DNA of 64,000 nucleotides, taken from an uncultured Verrucomicrobia subdivision 3 bacterium. GTDB lineage: Bacteria > Verrucomicrobiota > Verrucomicrobiia > Limisphaerales > UBA11358. Each line of letters opens with the position of its first letter. The first letter of the stretch is position 1. A program made the position numbers and the translations under genes. The stretch lies in the NCBI GenBank assembly GCA_903922735.1, contig CAIXUZ010000001.1, positions 1-64,000 of the forward strand, read 5' to 3'. Below, one piece after another: positions 8,990 through 20,795 of this stretch. The notes below the pieces were generated by a model. The model searched no databases. It had not been told where the DNA came from and saw nothing but the letters and a program-made list of their open reading frames with translations.

Positions 8990-9808
8990 TTAACCCACGC
9001 TGCCTTCGCGTTCTGCGTGCGCCGCCTGTTCCGTTGCCGCCCAGCCGCGCACCAGGTCGGGGAACCGGCAGTCCGCGCACATCGCGTTCGAGTGCTCGCA
9101 AAAATCGCGGACAATTTGCATCAGCCCCTGTTGCTGCGCCGCGCTTTTCAAAATCCGGGCGCTGGCGGTGCCCAGCAAACGCTGCCGCGCCAGTTTCAAA
9201 ACGGAGTTGTCCGCCGCCGCCGGCCACCGGAAATATCGCCGGCTGATTTCCGCCTGCAGTTCTTCGTTGCCGCCTTCCTGCGCGCGAATCCACAGCCACG
9301 GCAGCACGACGTTCACCGCCAGATCCGTCACCCGCGCCTCGCCCAGCAAGGGCTGCGGCTGGGCCAGCCGCGCGGACTTGAACGTCCAGTGCCACGACCA
9401 GAAATCATCGCGCTCCACCTGGAGAATTTCGCGCAGCGAAGCGAGCAATTTCAGATCCGGCAGTTCCGCCGCGCACCAGGCTTCAATACTGGCCATCAGG
9501 TTTCCTGACGCCAGCCAGTGCGCCGCCAGCGCCAGCCGCCGCTGCGGGTGATTGGCCGGGCGCAGGCCGTGAAATTTCCAGGCTGCGCGCGGCAGGGTGC
9601 AGTCGGAAAATTCCTCGCGGTCGCGCCACCAGCCATCCCATGCACGGCGGAGAAAGGTGTCGGAGCTTTTTTGCGCCCGGGTCAAATCCGCCGGCAGCAG
9701 CCCGCTGACCCCCAGCAGCCGCGCCTGGATTTCAAAGACGGAATCCACGCCCCGCCGCCAGCGCGGTTTCGTCTCCGCGAGATTTTGCATCGGCCAGACG
9801 TTGTGCTT
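8990..9808 (-). pseudogene. DUF2851 family protein, 5'-truncated remnant
   Basis: The visible protein corresponds to the C-terminal half of DUF2851 proteins: a 'K HNVWPMQNLAE' type block, then KFHGLRPANHPQRRLALAA, and a C-terminal cysteine pair in FCEHSNAMCADC. An ATG exists at 9790, but the family-like reading runs on past it to about 9808, where an in-frame stop meets foreign sequence. Roughly the first 150-200 residues are missing. The break coincides with the left edge of the low-GC island. Function of the family is unknown. Confidence 0.75.
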
Positions 9809-9941
9809 CTACTACGTAGTGATATAACAAAATCAATGAAACGCTTGTGAAGATTGGCTTTTATTGCATTTCATGCCCCGATACCGCCCGACAAATGGCC
9901 CTTGCTCTGGCAAACCTTCTGGCCTTCAATGATAGGCCAAC

Positions 9942-11420
9942 GTGATGAGCCGCAGCCCATACATTTCAAAGTCCAAATTCCTTCACGGCCTGCAATGTCA
10001 CAAATTGTTGTGGTGCGACTACAACGCCAAGCATCTGTTCCCCGCAGTTGATGATTCCCTGCAAGCGGTGTTTGACCAAGGGCATGAGGTGGGAGCATTT
10101 GCCAAGAAAATGTTTCCCAATGGCGTTGAGATTGATACCGATCCCAAAGATTTCGAGGGCGCAATCCAGTTGACCCAAAAGCATCTTGCGTCACGGCGCC
10201 CAATCTTTGAGGCCACACTATCGGCCAACGGCGGATATGCTCGTGCCGATATTCTGAATCCCGTTGGCAAAAACGAATGGGACATCATTGAGGTCAAATC
10301 AACCACGTCGTTGAAGGATGCACACATCCCCGATGTCGCATTTCAGGTCTGGGTGTTTACGGAGGCTGGAATAAAAATTCGTCGCTGCTTCCTCTGCCAC
10401 ATCAATAATCAATTCGTCCGGCACGGGGAGATTGACCCGAAGGAATTTTTTACGCTCCGTGACGTGACGGCGGAAGTGGCTGAATACTCCCACGGCATTG
10501 AAGACCAGATCGGCGACATGGGAAAAGTCATTCGTGCCGCCAAATGTCCTGAAATCCAAATCGGGAAACAGTGTGATTCTCCATACACCTGTGCCCTGCA
10601 TGACCATTGCTGGAAATTCCTCCCACCGCAGAATGTTCTGGATCTTTACGACGATAAAAAGGGGCGTGGATGGGATTTGCTGAAACGTGGTGTGCTGCGT
10701 CTCGCTGACATCCCTGATGATTATTCGTTGTCGGCAAAGCAAGAGATTCAAAGGGAAGTGGCAATTAGCGGGAAACCATACGCCAAGAAAACCCAGATCC
10801 AGACCTTTTTGAAGGGACTGCAATACCCCCTGCATTTCTTGGATTTTGAAACATTTCAAATGGCGATCCCGATGTTTGATGGCACACGGCCATACCAACA
10901 AGTCCCATTTCAATTTTCACTTCACATCGTTCACAAGGCGGGAATGAAGCCCGAGCATCGTAAATTTCTGGCTGAGGGCAGGAACGATCCACGAGGGGAT
11001 TTCATGCGTCAGTTGAAATCTTCAATTGAACCTACCGGCTCCATCGTGGCTTTTAATGCGCCGTTTGAGAAAAGTCGGATGAAAGAATGTGCCGTGGTTT
11101 TGCCGGAATACGCATCATGGGTGACGGCGGTAAATGGCCGGGTCGTGGATTTGCTGAATCCATTCAAATCATTCACGTTTTATCATCCAGATCAGTGCGG
11201 CAGCGCATCAATGAAACTGGTTCTCCCAGCGTTGACGGGCAAGGATTACACGAGTTTGGAAATTCAAGAGGGTGGAGCGGCCAGCCGGGAATATCTGCGG
11301 GTAACTTTTGGCGATGTCAGCGAATCAGAACGGAAGCGGGTGCGTCGTGCCCTTGAGAAATATTGCGGTCAGGATACCGAGGGTATGGTTTGGATTTTGG
11401 ATGCGTTGAGACTGGTTTGA
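9942..11420 (+). CDS. DUF2779 protein: Cas4-like nuclease plus DEDD-exonuclease-like domain
   Basis: The N-terminal part (about 1-240) has a PD-(D/E)XK arrangement: ARADIL ... DIIEVKSTTS, and cysteines (QCDSPYTCALHDHC) placed like the Fe-S cluster of Cas4/AddB-type nucleases. The C-terminal part opens with LHFLDFETF, the first motif of RNase H-fold DEDD exonucleases, continues through IVAFNAPFEKSRM, and ends with YCGQDTEGMVWILDAL. This architecture is that of DUF2779. It probably cuts or trims nucleic acid; the biological role is unknown. Translation may start at GTG 9942 or the adjacent ATG 9945. Its last 70 bp are repeated twice downstream. Confidence 0.85.
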   Translation: MMSRSPYISKSKFLHGLQCHKLLWCDYNAKHLFPAVDDSLQAVFDQGHEVGAFAKKMFPNGVEIDTDPKDFEGAIQLTQKHLASRRPIFEATLSANGGYARADILNPVGKNEWDIIEVKSTTSLKDAHIPDVAFQVWVFTEAGIKIRRCFLCHINNQFVRHGEIDPKEFFTLRDVTAEVAEYSHGIEDQIGDMGKVIRAAKCPEIQIGKQCDSPYTCALHDHCWKFLPPQNVLDLYDDKKGRGWDLLKRGVLRLADIPDDYSLSAKQEIQREVAISGKPYAKKTQIQTFLKGLQYPLHFLDFETFQMAIPMFDGTRPYQQVPFQFSLHIVHKAGMKPEHRKFLAEGRNDPRGDFMRQLKSSIEPTGSIVAFNAPFEKSRMKECAVVLPEYASWVTAVNGRVVDLLNPFKSFTFYHPDQCGSASMKLVLPALTGKDYTSLEIQEGGAASREYLRVTFGDVSESERKRVRRALEKYCGQDTEGMVWILDALRLV

Positions 11421-11533
11421 TCAATCGCTTCCCCTCAGACGATTCTTATGGCTCTCATTCTTATAGCTAGTTAATTTTGGCTAACGCCACTGATTGAAAA
11501 ATCCGAATCATCATAAAGCTAGAAGGAAAATAT

Positions 11534-11995
11534 ATGGCCTCAAAATTTGGACATGAGCGTCTAAACAGGCAGGAGAAAGTATGGAAAGAGCCGAGTGGGT
11601 GCAGTGGTTCATTAGAGCAGTCTTTACCGTTTGAGTGGACTCCAGAAGAAGGTGTTCGTTATACACGTGTTGCCTTTGAAGATCAAAAGGAGAGGGAGTT
11701 CCGTGCGTTCTTGATGGAAAAACTAAAAGCTCGTTTCCCGGATAACATCTTTACGGTGAAGTTCCCGCCGAATTTCGGTCGTTCTTACAAGTTTGCTTTT
11801 GGCATGAACGCAAGGTCATTTTCAATGATCAACCGCTCAGGTTCGTTTGATAAAATTAGAGCAAGAGTGGCAACAATGTTGCCTATTCACAAAGCATATA
11901 AGCATGATGAGATTGGTAATTATGTGTTGGAATGCTCATGTAATCTTGACGCATTGGCTAAAAAATTTGGATTTTCAAAAATTAATTCACCTTGA
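11534..11995 (+). CDS. Hypothetical protein, first ORF after the DUF2779 gene
   Basis: A 153-residue soluble protein with a good ribosome site (GAAGGAAAA) before its ATG. I recognise no domain. Residues 40-80 (VAFEDQKEREFRAFLMEKL) look helical, with a basic central part. Its stop codon is formed at the first bases of the second copy of the DUF2779 3' end (CCTTGAG), so the ORF ends exactly as that repeat begins. The AT-rich codon use is similar to the rest of the island. Confidence 0.6.
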   Translation: MASKFGHERLNRQEKVWKEPSGCSGSLEQSLPFEWTPEEGVRYTRVAFEDQKEREFRAFLMEKLKARFPDNIFTVKFPPNFGRSYKFAFGMNARSFSMINRSGSFDKIRARVATMLPIHKAYKHDEIGNYVLECSCNLDALAKKFGFSKINSP

Positions 11996-12059
11996 GAAGC
12001 ATTGTGAACAGGACACCGAGGGTATGGTTTGGATTTTGGATGCGTTGAGTTTTCATTGA
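11990..12059 (+). repeat. Second copy of the DUF2779 3' end
   Basis: This 70-bp stretch matches 11351-11420 closely, including 31 consecutive identical bases from ACCGAGGG to GCGTTGAG. It encodes LEKHCEQDTEGMVWILDAL in the same register as the parent gene, then stops. It is a 3' remnant or attachment-type duplication, not a complete gene. Confidence 0.85.
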
Positions 12060-12060
12060 T

Positions 12061-12261
12061 ATGAAAATGACTTACACCATCTTTGGTCAACGGTCTGCTG
12101 GAGGATATTTTGGGCGAGTCAAAACTCGTCATGTGGATGCAGACGGCAAGGTGATTATCTTTCAAACCTACGAGGAAGCTGCGAAGCGTTGTGAGGAAAT
12201 GAATGCCAGCTTGGTGGATCGAAACCTCCATTATAGTGTAGAGCGGCGACTTATCAGCTAA
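12061..12261 (+). CDS. Small hypothetical protein
   Basis: A 66-residue soluble ORF that starts directly after the second DUF2779-end repeat. It is rich in aromatic and charged residues (YTIFGQRSAGGYFGRV) and has no recognised family. It is followed 4 bp later by a GNAT-like gene and may be co-translated with it. The coding case rests on island-like codon use and tight spacing, so it is tentative. Confidence 0.5.
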   Translation: MKMTYTIFGQRSAGGYFGRVKTRHVDADGKVIIFQTYEEAAKRCEEMNASLVDRNLHYSVERRLIS

Positions 12262-12265
12262 GTGT

Positions 12266-12760
12266 GTGAGGCGTATGTTAGAACGATTTAAGAAATCCAT
12301 TATCCACGACAAGCACGGGAGACCATACTTCGTGATTGCAAGCGATTTGGATTCGGAAATCTTCAAGCGATTCAACATTGAGCATCGTGGCCATCGTGTC
12401 GGTTACGTCAACTACCACATTGAAGGCGATGACGTTTTATACGTTGATGACTTTCACATATACGACAAAGCCCTGCGTCCTCCGTGGTTTTTTATAGATT
12501 TATTCATCTGGAATCTTGGCTCGTTTCCGCCGGAACGCTGGCGAATCACCAATTATCAAAAGCGTGGTCTTGGCACGGCGATGATTGAATTCTTAAAAGG
12601 TTTCGCAAAGTCGGAATCGTTGAAATGGATTGAGGGCGAAGTAAAGCAATACGACTTCAAGGACAATCCCGATTTGCCGGATTGGTATCGACGGAGAGGT
12701 TTTACCGTCTGCACGGACCCCAAATCCGCCGGGATCGCAAAGATTTCTTTGACGCTTTAA
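12266..12760 (+). CDS. GNAT-family acetyltransferase-like protein
   Basis: The acetyl-CoA pocket motif of GNAT enzymes is visible as NYQKRGLGTAMIEFL at about residues 94-108, followed by the helix FAKSESLKWIEGEV and the terminal WYRRRGFTV, which matches the GNAT 'FY...GF' ending. The first strands (RPYFVIASDL, GYVNYHI, LYVDDFHI) fit the fold. The start is GTG 12266 or ATG 12275. The substrate is unknown. The stop codon lies directly against the third DUF2779-end repeat. Confidence 0.75.
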   Translation: MRRMLERFKKSIIHDKHGRPYFVIASDLDSEIFKRFNIEHRGHRVGYVNYHIEGDDVLYVDDFHIYDKALRPPWFFIDLFIWNLGSFPPERWRITNYQKRGLGTAMIEFLKGFAKSESLKWIEGEVKQYDFKDNPDLPDWYRRRGFTVCTDPKSAGIAKISLTL

Positions 12761-12801
12761 TCACCGAGGGCATGATTTGGGTGCGTTGAGACGTGACTTG
12801 A
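12761..12801 (+). repeat. Third, decayed copy of the DUF2779 3' end
   Basis: The match runs from ACCGAGGG.ATG.TTTGG to TGCGTTGAGAC...TTGA of copy 1, with about 8 bp deleted in the middle. It starts immediately after the stop codon of the GNAT-like gene. It is more diverged than copy 2. Confidence 0.7.
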
Positions 12802-12802
12802 T

Positions 12803-13063
12803 TTAGCGTTTCTTTTTTATGCCGGATTTTTCCCGCCGCAAATCTTCTGCCTCTTGAATCAATTGGGATAACGGGACATCAAGTGCGTTGGCGAGAGAAT
12901 CGGCCAAGTTCAAACTGGGATTCCGAATAAAAGTTTCGATCCGCCCAATCATTTTCACATCAACATCCGCTCTCTCGCTTAATTTTTCTTGGGTCATTTT
13001 TACCGCTTTTCTGCGGTTGCGGAGCACGACGCCAAATGATTTCGCCAGATCTCTTTTTAGCAC
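12803..13063 (-). CDS. XRE-family helix-turn-helix regulator
   Basis: An 86-residue protein that is almost entirely one Cro/C1-type HTH: FGVVLRNRRKAVKMTQEKLS, then ERADVDVKMIGRIE, NPSLNLADSLANALDVPLSQL. The basic tail ends KKKR. It is a DNA-binding regulator, possibly of the island or as antitoxin-like control, though no toxin partner is adjacent. It is convergent with the GNAT-like gene and divergent from the lipoprotein gene at 13177. Confidence 0.85.
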   Translation of the reverse strand: MLKRDLAKSFGVVLRNRRKAVKMTQEKLSERADVDVKMIGRIETFIRNPSLNLADSLANALDVPLSQLIQEAEDLRREKSGIKKKR

Positions 13064-13176
13064 CCTACAACTTTGCCATTAACAAAATCGGTAATGACAG
13101 GGACTATAGTCCCCCTTTTATCTTGACGCATCTTCAGTCGTTTGGTGAGTTGGTTCAAAGCCATAATCATTCAGCC

Positions 13177-13554
13177 ATGAGCGCAATCATCAAAACAACT
13201 TTGCTCATCATTGCGCTTATGGCATTGGGCGCTGGTTGCGGGAAAAATCTTGGCTACACGCAGGAGGAAATGTCCGGCGTCTTTAAGAGTGACGGTTCCC
13301 CGACTTTAACATTGCATCTCAATGCTGACGGCACTTCGCTAACAGACTATGGCGAGGGCGGTAGATTTTCAGGCAAATGGGAGCGTGTGAGCGGTGATGG
13401 CATTTGCACGGTTTATGACGATCCCTCCTTCAATGTAAATCCAACGTTTTACACCATTCTCTCGAAAGACAAATTGAAACCTTTGAACAGGGAGGCGATT
13501 AAAATGGGCATTTCAAGTCCTATCTTTAATCGAGTCAAACAGCAAAATCACTGA
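13177..13554 (+). CDS. Small lipoprotein of unknown function
   Basis: From the ATG at 13177 the product has a basic start (MSAIIKTT), a hydrophobic stretch and a lipobox ending LGAGC, so it should be exported and lipidated at about Cys22. The mature part, about 100 residues, is a probable beta-rich domain: GVFKSDGSPTLTLHLNADGT, GGRFSGKWERVSG. Lipocalin-like small lipoproteins with such 'fraction-of-substance' beta repeats are common, but I cannot name a family. Confidence 0.7.
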   Translation: MSAIIKTTLLIIALMALGAGCGKNLGYTQEEMSGVFKSDGSPTLTLHLNADGTSLTDYGEGGRFSGKWERVSGDGICTVYDDPSFNVNPTFYTILSKDKLKPLNREAIKMGISSPIFNRVKQQNH

Positions 13555-13584
13555 CCGTAAAACCAACATAAAACATCAAGCACT

Positions 13585-13893
13585 ATGCAAACCGAAAATA
13601 TTCCTAACAACAAAAAACGCAATTGGGGATGGGGACTTCTCTGTATTGGGTTACTTATTATTTTGGCAAAGGGACACGATTATTTCGATCAAGAAGCCGC
13701 TTTGAAGGCAAAATTAAATTCGGCAAGTATGCAAACGGTCATGGAACTAAATTTGGGCGATAGGCAAAATCAAGATGCATTGCGTGCTAACATCAAAGAA
13801 GAAGCAGGCACCGCTTTGGGGGGAAGCTCAATCCTCATTGTTGTGGGAGCGTCCCTTCTGCTGATCCATTACAAAAGCAAACGGGTTGCATAG
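13585..13893 (+). CDS. Small membrane protein, hypothetical
   Basis: 102 residues with two membrane helices: about 15-28 (WGLLCIGLLIILA) and 80-95 (SSILIVVGASLLLIHY), separated by a charged helical region. No family recognised. It follows the lipoprotein gene by 30 bp and may share its transcript. The 220 bp after it hold no gene I can support. Confidence 0.55.
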   Translation: MQTENIPNNKKRNWGWGLLCIGLLIILAKGHDYFDQEAALKAKLNSASMQTVMELNLGDRQNQDALRANIKEEAGTALGGSSILIVVGASLLLIHYKSKRVA

Positions 13894-14110
13894 CCTCAAA
13901 ATAAGGCACCTCATATCCGTTTGACCTCTGGCGCATCCTGTTCCGTCTGGGTATTTTGCCATGTCCCAACGACCCTGACCGCTCCTGACCCCATCCGGCG
14001 AGCTTGGAAAGGGTTTGTGAACAGTATGCCACACCCCAACTTTGGGGACATTCGTGACGAATCTGCCAGTTTTGACCCGAAACACGTTGCGGTTTGTTGG
14101 AACCCTTTCG

Positions 14111-14845
14111 CTATCGAGAAATGCTAAGCCGATAAAACGCTTTCTGTTCCTCGGATGTATTGTGGATAATAACAGGATACCAATTTAAAAGGTCTATGGA
14201 TTTATCAACGCCAATTTGAAACGCACCGGTTGGACCTTGAATTAATTTTAATTCAGGCATAACCACTGAGTCTTCCTTGAAGAAATAAGGGTAAATCGCC
14301 ACGTAATTTGTATTAAATTGCGGCATAGGGTATTTAATATTGATGGAAAGTGGTCCGGTAAACTCTTCACCTCCATAAATCGAACTAGTAATTTCTCTTC
14401 CGCCGTTTTGAAAGGTAACATTTACAGAAATCTCTACGCTAGGCAGTGGCTGAGGATTTAAAAACTTTATTGTTTTTCCATTTGGAACAGATATGACATT
14501 CGTAGAATCGCTTGTCACAATTTCAGACCGTATCTGGCTACCAGTCAATATCTGATAGCTAATGATACGATTCCCTAAATTTGTCTTCAGTAATTGAATC
14601 GGACCAACTAAAACAGCCAGCGGTTGTGACTGGTTACCAAAAACCAATGGAAATACATTCGTTTTCCCATTGGCAATCAGCAACGGATAATCCGGCCCCG
14701 CATCCGTGGAATGATAAGAAACAAACGCAACTTGCCCTGTAGAAATATTCAAGCTGAACACTTCTCCAACGCCTGTAATTGACACTTCGGAATGGGCCAT
14801 TGATTGGAACAAAGCTGCAAAGATCAACAACAAGTATGATTTCAT
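14111..14845 (-). CDS. Secreted hypothetical protein with verrucomicrobial C-terminal signature
   Basis: From ATG 14845 the product begins with a signal peptide (MKSYLLLIFAALFQSMAHSE). The rest looks beta-rich and Asn/Ser/Thr-rich, without a recognised catalytic domain. The last 40 residues (FQIGVDKSIDLLNWYPVI ... KAFYRLSIS) match the 'S.DL.NW.PV ... FYRL' ending seen on many secreted verrucomicrobial proteins; it is probably a small beta domain. The longest frame starts at 14863, but the internal Met gives a better signal peptide. Confidence 0.65.
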   Translation of the reverse strand: MKSYLLLIFAALFQSMAHSEVSITGVGEVFSLNISTGQVAFVSYHSTDAGPDYPLLIANGKTNVFPLVFGNQSQPLAVLVGPIQLLKTNLGNRIISYQILTGSQIRSEIVTSDSTNVISVPNGKTIKFLNPQPLPSVEISVNVTFQNGGREITSSIYGGEEFTGPLSINIKYPMPQFNTNYVAIYPYFFKEDSVVMPELKLIQGPTGAFQIGVDKSIDLLNWYPVIIHNTSEEQKAFYRLSISR

Positions 14846-14964
14846 GGCGTTTAATTCTTGCACGGATTTAACGAGTCCCAGTAGGCTTTTATCAATCTAA
14901 TGGAACCATTTCTGGTATTTGAAGTCCAGCGGCATAATCGTCAGCGGGACGAATTCGGGCACTC

Positions 14965-15612
14965 GTGACTTTTTACCAAGGGGTTGCACTTGCCGCTACC
15001 GGCGATGATTGTTACGCTCGCTTCCCTATGGGTTGCACAGACAAAAAGGCATCTGGCAAAGCGAACATGCTCGCAGACATCGTGGCGGAATTCCTTGAGC
15101 AGGATGGATGTTGTCCCCGTGAGGAAATGGATATCTTTCGTGGATTAAAAATTGAGGATGCAATCAAAAGGGCAGCACAAGCTAGAGACCAAAACGGCAA
15201 ATTATTCGTTCATCAATGGAATTTAGAGTATCAACCCCAAGTTCCACAAAAAGCTGAGAAAATCCTGCTGGCATCCATTCCTGAGATTTTGGAATGCAAA
15301 GATTTTGATACGCTCCATGCACTCGTGAAATCAAAACTACAAATCCCCTTCGCTGGAGAATTGTATTGGTATGACACGGCATTCAGGATTGGCATCAGCA
15401 TGGGGATTTTTCCACAAAAGGTTTATCTGCACGCAGGAACACGAATGGGAGCAATCACTCTCGGAATTTATGAGAAGGGCAAAGAGATTTTAGAAATGTC
15501 TGATTTGGTAAAAAAGTATCCCGAATTTACAAAAATGAAGGCGCATCAAATTGAAGATTTCCTGTGCATTAAAGAAAAGCAGGGCGTATTACGAAAGGTC
15601 AAGCGGCTTTAA
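14965..15612 (+). CDS. Hypothetical protein of the island
   Basis: 215 residues from GTG 14965; an ATG at 15067 or another internal codon could be the true start. The C-terminal half (LYWYDTAFRIGISMGIFPQK, then VYLHAGTRMGA) is a well-structured motif that I have the impression recurs in uncharacterised bacterial proteins, and may include a helix-hairpin-helix-like element. No catalytic motif is evident. A membrane-protein gene follows at 23 bp. Confidence 0.6.
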   Translation: MTFYQGVALAATGDDCYARFPMGCTDKKASGKANMLADIVAEFLEQDGCCPREEMDIFRGLKIEDAIKRAAQARDQNGKLFVHQWNLEYQPQVPQKAEKILLASIPEILECKDFDTLHALVKSKLQIPFAGELYWYDTAFRIGISMGIFPQKVYLHAGTRMGAITLGIYEKGKEILEMSDLVKKYPEFTKMKAHQIEDFLCIKEKQGVLRKVKRL

Positions 15613-15634
15613 AATATCCACACTGTGACCCCAA

Positions 15635-16096
15635 ATGAAACCTCCAGAAATGACAGACGAGCAGAGAAAAAATCGTGCAGATATCATTGATCGGCGGTGG
15701 AAGCAGCTTTACGAGCTTGATAAAGAGACTGGGCAAACCGCCCTCCAACAACTTTTTCTCATAAACTCTGGCGGGGCAGCGACAACGCTTGCCTTCATTG
15801 GAGCCATTGGAGCGACAAAAATCGCTTCTGGAGTCAAAATCTCGTTAGCGTTCTTTATCATTGGCGTCATTCTGGTAGGAGTGAGCAGAGCAAAACAGTT
15901 CCACCACATGAGCAATTTGTTTAGAAATTGGAAAAAACTGGTTGAGGATTATTATTCAGGCGCAAATACTTGGGAGGAAATAATTAATTTGGACAATAGA
16001 TTGGCCAAAGAAGATTTTTGGGATTATGCGATTCCCTATGCTTCTTTCGCTTGCTTCATCATCGGTTCGATCATGGGTTTCATTGCGCTATGGTGA
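15635..16096 (+). CDS. Small integral membrane protein
   Basis: 153 residues: an acidic/basic N-terminal helix (EQRKNRADIIDRRWKQLYEL), two closely spaced membrane helices at about 50-82, an amphipathic segment, and a third helix at the C-terminus (ASFACFIIGSIMGFIAL). The layout recalls small membrane effectors found next to defence genes (SLATT-like), but no family assignment is safe. It is 30 bp upstream of the HEPN-like gene. Confidence 0.6.
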   Translation: MKPPEMTDEQRKNRADIIDRRWKQLYELDKETGQTALQQLFLINSGGAATTLAFIGAIGATKIASGVKISLAFFIIGVILVGVSRAKQFHHMSNLFRNWKKLVEDYYSGANTWEEIINLDNRLAKEDFWDYAIPYASFACFIIGSIMGFIALW

Positions 16097-16125
16097 CGGG
16101 TTGACGCCCTGCCGAGAGGATAAAA

Positions 16126-17406
16126 ATGGATTACAACAATCCTGCAAAATATGTTTTGGATGGGGTGCGATTTTCTTACCGAGGAGAAAGTTTTAAGGGG
16201 CAAGGATTTTTGACATGGGACCCCAAGACCGGGTTTCACATTGATGCACTTTTGGACAAAAACTTCGGCATCAAAGATTCACTCAAGCCTGTTAATCCCA
16301 TCATCATTAACACCAAGGAAGACACGTTCCCCATTTTCTTAGCTGTCAGGAATGTAGGTAGAGCTATCATTCCTAGAGCGTTTCCCGTTAGCCAGAAACA
16401 TTCGTTCCGACCGGATAATCACCTGTCAATGAACTTGGAGCGGGTGATATTTGTATCCAAAAGACCGAGAATCAATCAGACGCCATCAAAATACTGGTCA
16501 GGATCTGCTGAATTTCTGACCGCAGAGAAATTGGAATTCCCAGACCACCTTAATACGCATACCACTCTTGGAGGACAGCAACTAATCGATCATTACTCAA
16601 GCGGTCTATTTCATGATGACAAAGAGAATTGGAGTATTTCAGGGTATTCACCTGCAGATGGTAAATTTGAATTAAGCTGGGCATTGAACAAAAACCGTTG
16701 GGGCAGAAAAGATGCTTTGCGGCTTGGTGAAGCTGCTAGAAAAGCATTATCAATCATCTCATCGCAGACGGTATGGATAACGAAGCAAAATAATTTACGA
16801 GATGGTTCCGAGATTGAGGATTTGCACTGCCCGGAGGAGGCAAAAAGTCTCAACTATTTTTTTCAGCCTTTGCTTAACCAAGATATGGGCGTGATGGAAT
16901 GTTGGCATTTCAATAAAATCGCATTTTTGAAACTGACTGGATTTTTTCTTAAAGGCGGGATTTACGCTGAAACATCATGGAGAATTTTTCACCAGATGGT
17001 AGATGCGTCACTCCAAAAGACCGCACAAGCCCAGGAATTGCTATTGGCCACGATTCTTGAGGCAGTATTTCGCACCATCAATAATCGTCCATTTAAAGTT
17101 GGTGACTACTACCCCGAAAAAATGCGGAAGGCAGACATGGATAAATTCAGGGCAGAATATTTTTCTGAAAAATGGATTAAGGCATGTGACAAAGCATTGG
17201 ATTTGCATCGGGATCTACGACATCGTAACGCACATCCAGACTGGCTTACATCCGATGATGGCGGGATGTCAAAAGGGGAATTAATAAAATCTTACTCCAG
17301 CATCATTTTCTTAAGCCGGTTTTACGGCTACATGATATTGGGGATGGCTGGATTCAAAGATTTGGAGCCACGGTTTCCGGTTGTGCAGTTCGGCGACGAC
17401 AAGTGA
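16126..17406 (+). CDS. ApeA-like protein with C-terminal HEPN-type motif
   Basis: 426 residues. The C-terminal part is all-helical and contains DLRHRNAHPDW (about residues 364-374), which carries the R-x4-H signature of HEPN ribonucleases. The N-terminal part (KYVLDGVRFSYRGESFKGQG...) is beta-rich, and the order beta N-domain then HEPN resembles ApeA and related anti-phage proteins. If so, it would be an RNA-cleaving abortive-infection effector. The assignment rests on architecture and motif only. It is followed 14 bp later by an HNH-like gene and preceded by a small membrane protein, a typical accessory arrangement. Confidence 0.55.
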   Translation: MDYNNPAKYVLDGVRFSYRGESFKGQGFLTWDPKTGFHIDALLDKNFGIKDSLKPVNPIIINTKEDTFPIFLAVRNVGRAIIPRAFPVSQKHSFRPDNHLSMNLERVIFVSKRPRINQTPSKYWSGSAEFLTAEKLEFPDHLNTHTTLGGQQLIDHYSSGLFHDDKENWSISGYSPADGKFELSWALNKNRWGRKDALRLGEAARKALSIISSQTVWITKQNNLRDGSEIEDLHCPEEAKSLNYFFQPLLNQDMGVMECWHFNKIAFLKLTGFFLKGGIYAETSWRIFHQMVDASLQKTAQAQELLLATILEAVFRTINNRPFKVGDYYPEKMRKADMDKFRAEYFSEKWIKACDKALDLHRDLRHRNAHPDWLTSDDGGMSKGELIKSYSSIIFLSRFYGYMILGMAGFKDLEPRFPVVQFGDDK

Positions 17407-17419
17407 GCAGGCGAAATAA

Positions 17420-18259
17420 ATGAGCGGCAACAAACGAACAATCTGTGCCCTATGTCAGCAATCCCGGCCACTGAGGGAATCGCACATCATTCCAGAATTC
17501 CTCCACGCCCCACTTTACGAAGAAAATCCTCGCCGATTTAACACCTACGGACTTGATGGAAGGCCCCAATTAGGATTGCTACAAAAGGGGCAAAGAGAAC
17601 GGCTTCTCTGTGATGAATGCGAACAACGTTTCTGCGTTTACGAACGATGGGTTTCGGATTTTTACAGAGGATCTATCGCTGCCTTTTCCGACACGACCCG
17701 CTCAGAAATTCCTTACGGAAAGAAACTCAGGTTCTCCCGTATTGATTCCAATGGAAATCCAACAACGTCAGCAGTGCCAAGAAAACTCATAATAGAAGGC
17801 TTTGATTATGCAAAAATGAAGCTCTTCCTGCTTTCTCTTTTGTGGCGCATGGGGGTGTCACAATTGCATTTCTTCAGTGGGATCACGCTTGGTCATCAGG
17901 AAAAGAGATTGAGGAGAATGCTTTTGGATAACGACCCCGGAAGCGCAGAGCGATATGCTTGCCAACTTCGTTTGATTGAACTGGAAGGAAAACTGGTCGC
18001 TGATTATCAATCTCAACCCCGCCAATATGACTACTGCGGCAGAAAGTGTTGCCGTCTTTTCAGCACAGGTTTTAGATTTGATTTTATGGCCAGCAACCAC
18101 CCAGCGGACGATTATGACGTTGACCGTTATTGTGTCAAACCCCAGCCACGATACGAGTGCTGGGTTGATTCAATTCTCACCCACCCCGACCTTGCTGGCG
18201 AGTTGATGAAATTTGGAAAAGATATGAAGCGGACTGAGGCCGGAAATCTACAGGCATGA
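17420..18259 (+). CDS. Cys/His (HNH-like treble-clef) protein
   Basis: 279 residues. A zinc-binding knuckle CALC is followed by RESHIIPEFLH and then LLCDECEQRF: the CxxC - SHIIP - CxxC order matches HNH-endonuclease-like treble-clef proteins. The remaining 200 residues are mixed alpha/beta without a recognised domain. It could be a nuclease or a nucleic-acid-binding accessory. The small gap after the HEPN-like gene suggests co-transcription. Confidence 0.6.
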   Translation: MSGNKRTICALCQQSRPLRESHIIPEFLHAPLYEENPRRFNTYGLDGRPQLGLLQKGQRERLLCDECEQRFCVYERWVSDFYRGSIAAFSDTTRSEIPYGKKLRFSRIDSNGNPTTSAVPRKLIIEGFDYAKMKLFLLSLLWRMGVSQLHFFSGITLGHQEKRLRRMLLDNDPGSAERYACQLRLIELEGKLVADYQSQPRQYDYCGRKCCRLFSTGFRFDFMASNHPADDYDVDRYCVKPQPRYECWVDSILTHPDLAGELMKFGKDMKRTEAGNLQA

Positions 18260-18298
18260 CGGCGTGATTTTAGATCCGACACAATTGAGATTAAACCA

Positions 18299-18320
18299 AA
18301 CCCGCAACATGTTGCGGGTT
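18299..18320. terminator. Perfect 22-bp palindrome between convergent genes
   Basis: AACCCGCAACA and its exact complement form a perfect palindrome, midway between the ends of two convergent genes. No clear T-run follows on either strand, so it may be a bidirectional terminator hairpin or a protein site. Confidence 0.4.
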
Positions 18321-18372
18321 CAAATGCACCCGATCTTATTTTGGATGAATCGGGAAATTGTGCCGTTGTTTG

Positions 18373-19062
18373 TCAATTAAGCAGCCCTCTGTCTTTCGCA
18401 TCTTTTAGGGCCAAAATGATGTCATCACATAGTTCTTCCTGTGAAAATGGATAGCTCAAGTGGTAGCAGTCCAAAATTATACGTTTTCCGACTGCATAAT
18501 AATTACGATAGCTCTTCGGGTATGCGGTGGAGTTTTCGAGAAAACCATAATGCCTGAAAAAATCAATTGTTCCAGATGCGACAATGATTGTTGGATTCGC
18601 AATTTCAATTTGCCGCTTCACCACTGAACTAAATATTTCGACGTTCTGCCAAAATATTCCCCAATCTCTGACTCTGGCTCCACCCACAATTTTGCTGATG
18701 TTTGTAAAAGCTGTGTTGAGCAACATGTTTGATATATTTACATCCTCGTCAGAATTAGGAATGTCTTCGTAAAAAGTCAGATTATTATCCAGCGAATACT
18801 CCAGATACCTCATGGGATCAAAATATTTGCTGCGCCCAATCTTGTTTTTGCTCAACTTGTCAATTATGTCTTCTTTGTAGTCATAATCACCGCCTGAATC
18901 ATGTGGTTCACGTAAAATCCACGAAACTTTAATTGGTCTCAAAACGTAGTGCTCTGGCGAGATTACACCGTCATAAACAGCCTCAAATCCCAATCGGTCT
19001 GCAATGCGTTTTACTTCCTCATCAATCGCAGATTGTTCGTAAATAATTTGTTGTGCGTTCAT
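18373..19062 (-). CDS. Possible uracil-DNA-glycosylase-fold protein
   Basis: About 229 residues from ATG 19062 (TTG 19068 would overlap the upstream gene by 4 bp). The strand-loop KVSWILREPHDSGG at about residues 45-60 and the later IIVASGTIDFF and CYHLSYP stretches are placed like the motifs of UDG-superfamily proteins. The exact catalytic residues are not recognisable, so function is uncertain. It is directly coupled to the YpsA/SLOG-like gene upstream, suggesting they work together. Confidence 0.45.
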   Translation of the reverse strand: MNAQQIIYEQSAIDEEVKRIADRLGFEAVYDGVISPEHYVLRPIKVSWILREPHDSGGDYDYKEDIIDKLSKNKIGRSKYFDPMRYLEYSLDNNLTFYEDIPNSDEDVNISNMLLNTAFTNISKIVGGARVRDWGIFWQNVEIFSSVVKRQIEIANPTIIVASGTIDFFRHYGFLENSTAYPKSYRNYYAVGKRIILDCYHLSYPFSQEELCDDIILALKDAKDRGLLN

Positions 19063-19064
19063 AA

Positions 19065-19517
19065 TCAATACATCGCCAATATCTGCTTCACGAACTCGCC
19101 AATCTCCGGCTCTTTAGAACCACGTGAGCCGGCCACATTTAGAATCCGAATGCCATTTGAACGAATAAAATCCACAAGTAGTTCAGCGGGCTGTTCTGTT
19201 GCGCTGGAAATGTGAACCACGGGTTTTTTGTGCTTCTCAGCAAAATGGACGGTTCGTTTTGATCCACCCGAAAGAGTTGCTGCAATGGTGAACACAACCG
19301 TCCCGTCGCTGTCTCTGGCGTTCCATTCCGTCCGCTGAAGATAATCTTTGCTGGAAGATTCCGTCAGGTTGTAGCGTGAAGAAATTGGACCATCCTCTGC
19401 AAGTCGCCCCTTGGGGCACCAGCCGCCATGCGGAATGCCGTTTTCAATCGCCCAATCAAGGGCGGCACGGTCTGCGCCGGTTTGTCCACCGCTGACGATC
19501 TTTTCAATCAATGGCAT
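19065..19517 (-). CDS. YpsA-related SLOG / putative molybdenum carrier protein
   Basis: 150 residues, a complete single domain. The nucleotide-binding loop SGGQTGADRAALDWA at the N-terminus and GWCPKGRLAEDGPI next are diagnostic of PF12694, a Rossmann-like SLOG family. SLOG proteins bind or process nucleotides and nucleotide signals, and several are used in anti-phage or stress systems; the 'molybdenum carrier' name is by similarity only. First gene of a two-gene unit with the UDG-like gene. Confidence 0.8.
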   Translation of the reverse strand: MPLIEKIVSGGQTGADRAALDWAIENGIPHGGWCPKGRLAEDGPISSRYNLTESSSKDYLQRTEWNARDSDGTVVFTIAATLSGGSKRTVHFAEKHKKPVVHISSATEQPAELLVDFIRSNGIRILNVAGSRGSKEPEIGEFVKQILAMY

Positions 19518-19527
19518 AATCCTTCAA

Positions 19528-19749
19528 TCAGATCGCAGGAACCAGTGTCCAAATCTTCTCCAAATCAGGGTCGTCAAGGGCTTGAAGTCGGATGTCTTCG
19601 TCTTTTCCAGCAAGGGCAATCGCTTGCTTGAGCCGTTCCATTGCAATCTTTAGTTTTCCCATCACGCATGCGTAACACGCAAGGTTGTATCGGATGACCC
19701 ACAATTTCGGAAACAACTTTGCGGCTGGCAGCAACAAATCATATGCCTC
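19528..19749 (-). pseudogene. TPR protein, C-terminal remnant
   Basis: The frame AYDLLLPAAKLFPKLW, then IRYNLACYACVMGKL and ALDDPDLEKIW is the typical last tetratricopeptide repeat of small TPR proteins. There is no start codon in context: an in-frame stop lies just upstream at the island edge (19750-19752), so the N-terminal part has been lost. It overlaps the broken alginate-lyase frame by a few bases. Confidence 0.65.
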
Positions 19750-20605
19750 TTACCTCCACGCGATTGAATGGGTTTTGACCGGGGACCCGCAGCATGCGGA
19801 TAAAGCCATTGAGATAATCAATGCCTGGTCTTATACCCTGCAAACCATCCAAGGTTCGGACCAGCAACTCCTGGCCGGGATTGTCGGGTTTAAGTTTTGC
19901 AATGCGGCGGAATTAATCAAACACACTTCCAACCGGTGGCCGCCCGCCGCCCAATATCAGTTTAAAAAGATGATGCGGGAGGTTTTTTATCCGCTGATCA
20001 AAAGCTACAAGCCGGGGAGTAATGGCAACTGGGATGCCTCCATGATTCTGACCACCCTGTGCATCGGCATATTCACTGACGACCGTGGTATGTATGAAGA
20101 TGCGTTGAAGTATGCACAAACCGGAAAATCCAACGGGGCCATACCCAATTACATTGCCGCCTCAGGGCAATGTCAGGAAAGCGGGCGCGATCAGGCTCAT
20201 ACCCAGTTGGGCTTGGGATTCCTTGGCAACCTTTGCGAAGTGGCCTGGAAACAGGGGGATGACCTTTATGGCGCCTTCGACCATCGGGTGGCCGCCGGCT
20301 ATGAATATGCGGCCAGATACAATCTCAACTATGAGGTGCCGTATAATCCCGTTCCGGATGTTTTTGGCAACCACTTGAACAAAAAAATATCCAATGATAA
20401 GCGGGGTGAATTCCGGCCGGTTTATGAAATGGTTTACCACCACTACCACGACCGGATGGGCTTGGAGATGAAATACACCAGAATGGTTCTCGATAAAATC
20501 CGCCCCGAGGGATACCACTGGGATCATCCCTCTTTCAGTTCTCTGCTCTACGAAAATCTCCCGGTATTTCCCAAGGGATATGGCCGGCAAGAAAAGATTC
20601 CATGA
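19742..20605 (+). pseudogene. Alginate-lyase-family protein, 5'-truncated
   Basis: From about Y in KSYASYLHAIEW the frame matches the alpha/alpha-barrel core of PF05426 polysaccharide lyases: LTGDPQHADKAIEIINAW, then the helices leading to NGNWDASMI and GRDQAHTQLGLGFL, which carry the conserved His-containing stretch. The signal peptide and roughly the first 150 residues are absent, and the upstream codons come from island DNA. Composition is high-GC, like the chromosome to the right. Probably inactive. Confidence 0.75.
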
Positions 20606-20795
20606 ACTTGGGAAACGCTTTTTCGTCAGCCCAACCCTGATGGGCCAGAGCCACTGGGCACCGGAAACGGGTTTTATTTTGAACGCAACTCCGCCGGCAG
20701 CTGCCTGTTTAAGGAATGATGGTTGAACTTTTTGTTCGCCGCCGCCGGCATTTTCCGGCTATGCTGAGTTTGATTTTTCAACGGTTCGCAGCGTG

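Follow-up and report, generated by a model that had tools for sequence, protein, structure and literature searches.

How does the 3′ end of a protein-coding gene come to recur behind the intact gene, next to open reading frames (ORFs) that are unrelated to it? The question is raised by a low-GC accessory island (9880–20700; GC content 0.40–0.51 versus 0.58–0.66 outside) in the window, by which we mean the whole stretch of 64,000 nucleotides analysed here. The island opens with a full-length DUF2779 gene (9942–11420, + strand; PF11074, E=1.2e-40; PF01930, E=4.6e-6) and holds all the copies and ORFs of the window described below. By Pfam, the gene product combines an N-terminal Cas4-like nuclease domain with the RNase H-like DUF2779 domain, a clade of the RNase H-like superfamily predicted to be a 3′–5′ exonuclease (PMC3985635). 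The source genome is a draft of 4.48 Mb in 82 contigs with 5.6% contamination, and its named relatives are metagenome-assembled genomes of Verrucomicrobia subdivision 3. An earlier note on this DNA had proposed that segments insert again and again at the 3′ end of the gene and bring or regenerate a copy of it, as in a cassette array that uses a protein gene as attachment site.

A repeat search delineated the 3′ end of the intact gene (copy 1; 11351–11421, + strand; RALEKYCGQDTEGMVWILDALRLV followed by the stop codon), which holds YxxxD, the predicted last catalytic motif of DUF2779. Copy 2 (11990–12059, + strand) is certain. In a BLAST comparison within the window, the last 60 bp of the gene (11351–11410) matched 11990–12049 at 54 of 60 positions (90%, E=6e-16), and the repeat search yielded 85% identity over a longer span of 71 bp. 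The identity between the two copies is mosaic: all six differences lie within the first 25 bp, the last 35 bp are perfect, and a usable stop codon is found at equal distance in both. Translated, copy 2 yields a DUF2779 C-terminus terminated by a stop codon of its own (LEKHCEQDTEGMVWILDALSFH; profile E=2.7e-7) and represents the 3′-end relic of a second allele, the ends being DALRLV and DALSFH in the window and DALRGTC in the near relative KTt_bin-0432 (denoted G034; contig CAIOIC010000097). Copy 3 (~12762–12812, + strand) is weaker than copy 2. It is a decayed, gapped remnant of 47 bp (~12763–12809) with a score of 45; among dinucleotide shuffles of the 150 bp around it, 0 of 2000 reached this score, as against 1 of 1000 for shuffles of 1 kb. 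No significant match was obtained for it at the protein level. Part of the copy 3 stretch is also present behind the corresponding gene in G034. A further full copy of the DUF2779 3′ end was not found in the 4.48-Mb genome. The recurrence at 11990 and, decayed, at 12761 that the earlier note had described is therefore borne out at the right coordinates, firmly at the first position and weakly at the second.

The ORFs between the copies had been counted as two, each ending exactly where the next copy begins; this is partly right. The orphan ORF153 (11534–11995, + strand; GC content 0.41) has its stop codon, TGA, inside copy 2 and is thus probably 3′-truncated there. Searches of 313 genomes of the order, of plasmids and of viral contigs returned no homologue of it, and the junction of ORF153 with copy 2 was likewise not found in viral contigs. 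The GNAT acetyltransferase-like gene (12266–12760, + strand) stops at its natural stop codon, with copy 3 immediately after it, and is complete, since the GNAT proteins of relatives end at the same residue. A third ORF that had been left out, ORF66 (12061–12261, + strand; 66 amino acids, no family), lies between copy 2 and GNAT, and its end does not coincide with any copy of the DUF2779 tail. Elsewhere in the genome, contig C22 carries a GNAT 3′ relic of 50 codons with 64% identity (G000:C22:51495–51644; L074 6496–6645), which adjoins type I restriction genes and a tyrosine integrase.

Comparison with G034 revealed which part of this arrangement is the younger one. There, DUF2779 runs straight into GNAT (…GCATTGAGGGGCACATGTTAGAACG…), with nucleotide identities to the window of 90% for DUF2779 and 88% for GNAT. 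A second DUF2779–GNAT pair of G034, diverged by 18%, is likewise directly adjoining (…GCGTTGAGGGGCGTATGTTAGAACG…). Relative to G034, blastn and the junction sequences delimit an extra segment of ~860 bp in the window (11411–12269, + strand) that comprises ORF153, copy 2 and ORF66; it begins right after GATGCGTTGAG and ends at GTGTGAG/GCGTATG. Because DUF2779 and GNAT adjoin at two G034 loci, we consider ORF153–copy 2–ORF66 a later gain in the window. The two genomes differ in a second place, at 12785–13886, where the blastn alignment jumps from 12784 to 13887. This segment, which is absent from G034, contains an HTH regulator (− strand), a lipoprotein-like ORF and an ORF of 102 amino acids; its left junction lies within copy 3. 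The difference may reflect either a gain by the window or a loss from G034, and it comes with a 4-bp microhomology, GTTG. A 137-bp non-coding stretch of the window (13887–14023) is 87% conserved in G034, where it directly follows copy 3, with flanks that otherwise differ.

Another gene of the island, encoding a TPR protein, also occurs as a 3′ relic in the window, consisting of the last 80 of 167 codons on the − strand (19531–19770; region 19528–19770). In G034, the DUF2779 block lies between an intact TPR gene (L075 15463–15966) and a second TPR 3′ copy (L075 19798–19900), of which at least 34 codons are present before the contig breaks off. Given these positions on opposite sides, the G034 island may have gene-end direct repeats as its flanks.

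With moderate confidence, we favour the reading that copies 2 and 3 are relic 3′ ends of other DUF2779 alleles, left by repeated recombination at a DUF2779 anchor. An incoming block would consist of DUF2779 sequence and the cargo genes that follow it, and the resident DUF2779 gene would serve as the homologous anchor. Recombination between the two could proceed by a single crossover with a circle or by one-sided, homology-facilitated illegitimate recombination. The block would be added, not swapped, so that the 3′ end of the resident gene, with all that follows it, would be pushed downstream of the new cargo, where the displaced and useless gene end would decay or be trimmed. After repeats of the process, the intact gene would be followed by cargo and a relic end, and then by older cargo and an older relic. 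We infer the order of events at the locus accordingly: GNAT, together with ORF66, would be the older cargo and ORF153 the newer, and copy 2 would be the end of the allele that formerly headed GNAT. The natural candidate for the place of the crossover is the 35-bp identity block, as 35 identical bp following 6 differences in 25 bp are the pattern that a crossover between two alleles would be expected to leave. The 3′ relics of the TPR and GNAT genes would also count in favour of such displacement, and so would the spread of breakpoints among the DUF2779 relics of the order.

A process of this kind is known from rhs genes. In the model proposed for them, a resident gene recombines with an incoming fragment of the same gene, presumed to be a circle, whereby a new end and its followers are added and the old end is shunted downstream (PMC2935791); the outcome is strings of 3′ fragments of variable length in low-GC DNA (Jackson et al. 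2009, PMC2935791). The window resembles the C-terminal displacement of Rhs and MafB in that 3′ fragments of a gene (copies 2 and 3), with different ends and with intervening genes, lie behind the intact gene in low-GC DNA, the fragment lengths varying among other genomes, and in that a relative preserves the older arrangement; a further likeness is that, as proposed here, homologous recombination adds new ends time after time and displaces the older ones. The two differ in their payload: in Rhs, the gene's own variable tip is exchanged, whereas DUF2779 has a conserved end and separate downstream genes would be the payload. The DUF2779 relics are also much shorter. Homology-facilitated illegitimate recombination could give the same displaced product from linear DNA (PMC3240628): one homologous anchor and one illegitimate joint add foreign DNA beside the resident gene. 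That process is known from experiments; for the present locus it is a proposal.

The earlier note had suggested inspecting what follows DUF2779 3′ ends in other genomes. A second copy of the gene's own 3′ end (E<1e-10) was found at 2 of the 38 DUF2779 loci tested, namely the window and G007:C190. In the latter, DUF2779 is followed by half of an HrgA-type HARE-domain gene, cut at 160 residues (intact homologues have 310–325 amino acids), and then by the tail of a second, divergent DUF2779 allele with its own stop (…VDSLRSFA). Two N's lie exactly at the junction between HARE gene and tail (L034 12407–12408), followed by 23 identical bases, so that an assembly or scaffolding join is possible there.

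The clearest parallel is provided by Aliarcobacter plasmids, which represent a clean case in finished sequence and in a different phylum. Among 12 plasmid loci tested, one carried a second DUF2779 3′ copy. The closed Aliarcobacter faecis plasmid pAFAEC contains DUF2779, helicase/AAA cargo, two collinear pieces of a decayed DUF2779 C-terminus and dgt, and the closed plasmid pM830MA, 98.8% identical to pAFAEC in this region, has the same layout. The pAFAEC relic matches the tails of related plasmids with E=5e-6 (protein) and 2e-6 (DNA) and is closer to the DUF2779 of other plasmids (60% in the first block, E=5e-6) than to its own resident gene (47%, E=0.002). By a single DNA alignment score the relic does not rise above the AT-rich background, and it is convincing only with the tails of relatives as queries. 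No relic was seen before dgt in pACRY43158 or p133_LEO_107, both of which have other cargo there. Together with the adjoining pairs of G034, the relics of G007 and Aliarcobacter support the idea of the earlier note that DNA was gained serially at the DUF2779 3′ end and end copies were left behind.

A motif search of 320 genomes found further DUF2779 ends that stand alone; the 3′ relics are 42, 67, 84, 97 and 167 codons long, as compared with 22 codons in the window and G007. Breakpoints of DUF2779 relics are thus scattered over more than 140 codons. In addition, 5′ fragments and internal deletions were found across the order; at L150 (G106:C107, 1288–1617), an in-frame DUF2779 gene has lost ~385 internal codons, its first 25–30 codons being fused to the last 80. 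The window and G007 relics begin at almost identical codons, a coincidence that a random process would not require and that remains the strongest point in favour of a site. A fixed breakpoint was nevertheless rejected, as the scattered relics elsewhere outweigh this coincidence.

Some observations speak against repeated recombination at DUF2779. Copy 2, with its 60 bp, is short for a RecA-dependent crossover unless it was longer when formed. Searches for an intact donor block, DUF2779–ORF153 or DUF2779–ORF66, found none. The verrucomicrobial cases come from single draft genomes, and two N's interrupt the G007 junction.

An unlikely alternative is that the locus formerly had a second (and third) full-length DUF2779 gene in tandem downstream, of which deletions in place, requiring no special recombination, spared the 3′ end alone. 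Internal deletions or loss of the 5′ part of DUF2779 are indeed common in the order, and the pAFAEC relic retains two separate pieces of the gene. The earlier note had held that other DUF2779 parts visible upstream of each copy would refute its proposal: no such trace was detected between the copies in the window, although longer relics do exist in other genomes. Moreover, G034 has no second DUF2779 gene at the corresponding place, so that even under deletion in place the second allele must have arrived by insertion, and the 35-bp identity block is left without explanation.

Site-specific integration, in which a trans-acting recombinase inserts small cassettes at the DUF2779 3′ end and each cassette brings a new end as attachment site, is very unlikely. 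The 35 bp of perfect identity beside divergent sequence resemble an att core, the window relic and the G007 relic share roughly the same starting codon, and the window differs from G034 at two places, with junctions at GRTGC(GTTGAG). The genome also has 23 tyrosine recombinase matches outside the window contig, among them an integron integrase on contig C49 (G000:C49:1127–2050; 423 bits to TIGR02249). Against this, a profile search detected no PF00589 tyrosine integrase on the window contig, C1, and hence none of this class within or next to the putative element, where an integrative element would be expected to have one. Attachment sites of constant length and position across insertions are not seen either, despite the near-coincidence of window and G007, given the spread of relic breakpoints over more than 140 codons. 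ORF153 and the HARE gene of G007 are both cut short where they meet the copies, and there is one clear repeat pair only. The variant in which a recombinase acting in trans, for example one of the 23 tyrosine matches, recognises the DUF2779 3′ end and builds arrays of one-gene cassettes, with the protein gene as attachment site, is highly improbable.

Two known systems sharpen this comparison. Insertion of prophage e14 into icd of Escherichia coli leaves an icd 3′ fragment. As at the present locus, insertion at the 3′ end of a protein gene supplies a new end and places the old one at the far side; unlike it, e14 spans many kb and has its own integrase, of which no PF00589 counterpart was found on the contig. 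Integron cassettes are likewise small and carry one gene each, followed by a site of ~60 bp, and this genome owns an integron integrase. In the window, however, the array lacks an attC consensus or fold, and its repeat is protein-coding sequence. No attC candidate (RYYYAAC/GTTRRRY) was found in 9500–20000, a scan that is weak on its own because the pattern, being strict, did not pick up the array next to the C49 integrase either, and single-strand folds of the DUF2779-end copies were no more stable than those of shuffles. An integron cassette array was therefore rejected. The C49 integrase lies near the contig start (G000:C49:1–2122, L158), with an apparent attI region and a cassette bounded by CCTAAC/GTTAGG, and its array appears to run off the contig end. 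No Rfam family was matched in 9500–20000. As for phage cargo, DUF2779 had no match in phage records, and DUF2779, GNAT and ORF153 had none in viral contigs. The missing PF00589 match, the lack of an attC-like site or fold, the scattered breakpoints and the truncated upstream ORFs thus tell against an attachment site, an integrase and a cassette array as the earlier note had envisaged them.

A metagenome assembly artefact, by which contigs of two strains would have been joined at the conserved end of the gene to create a false second copy, is very doubtful. In its favour are the state of the draft (82 contigs, 5.6% contamination), which is the single source of the window sequence, and the G007 parallel, whose junction is marked by NN followed by 23 identical bases. 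Against it, no N is present at the window junction, two closed plasmids, pAFAEC and pM830MA, independently show the same architecture, and copy 3 is partly common to another genome.

Taken together, DUF2779 appears to be a recurrent recombination anchor. On plasmids and in islands, the neighbours of DUF2779 genes include WYL, AAA, helicase, nuclease and restriction genes. Should DUF2779 genes serve as anchors for gaining neighbouring blocks, the relic ends would be datable scars of exchange that can be searched for across genomes. In that case, the displacement known for rhs and mafB would extend to an island nuclease gene with separate genes as payload. The locus is thus probably a record of swapped cargo in a lake bacterium, of the kind known for rhs, rather than a new integrase-driven cassette system.
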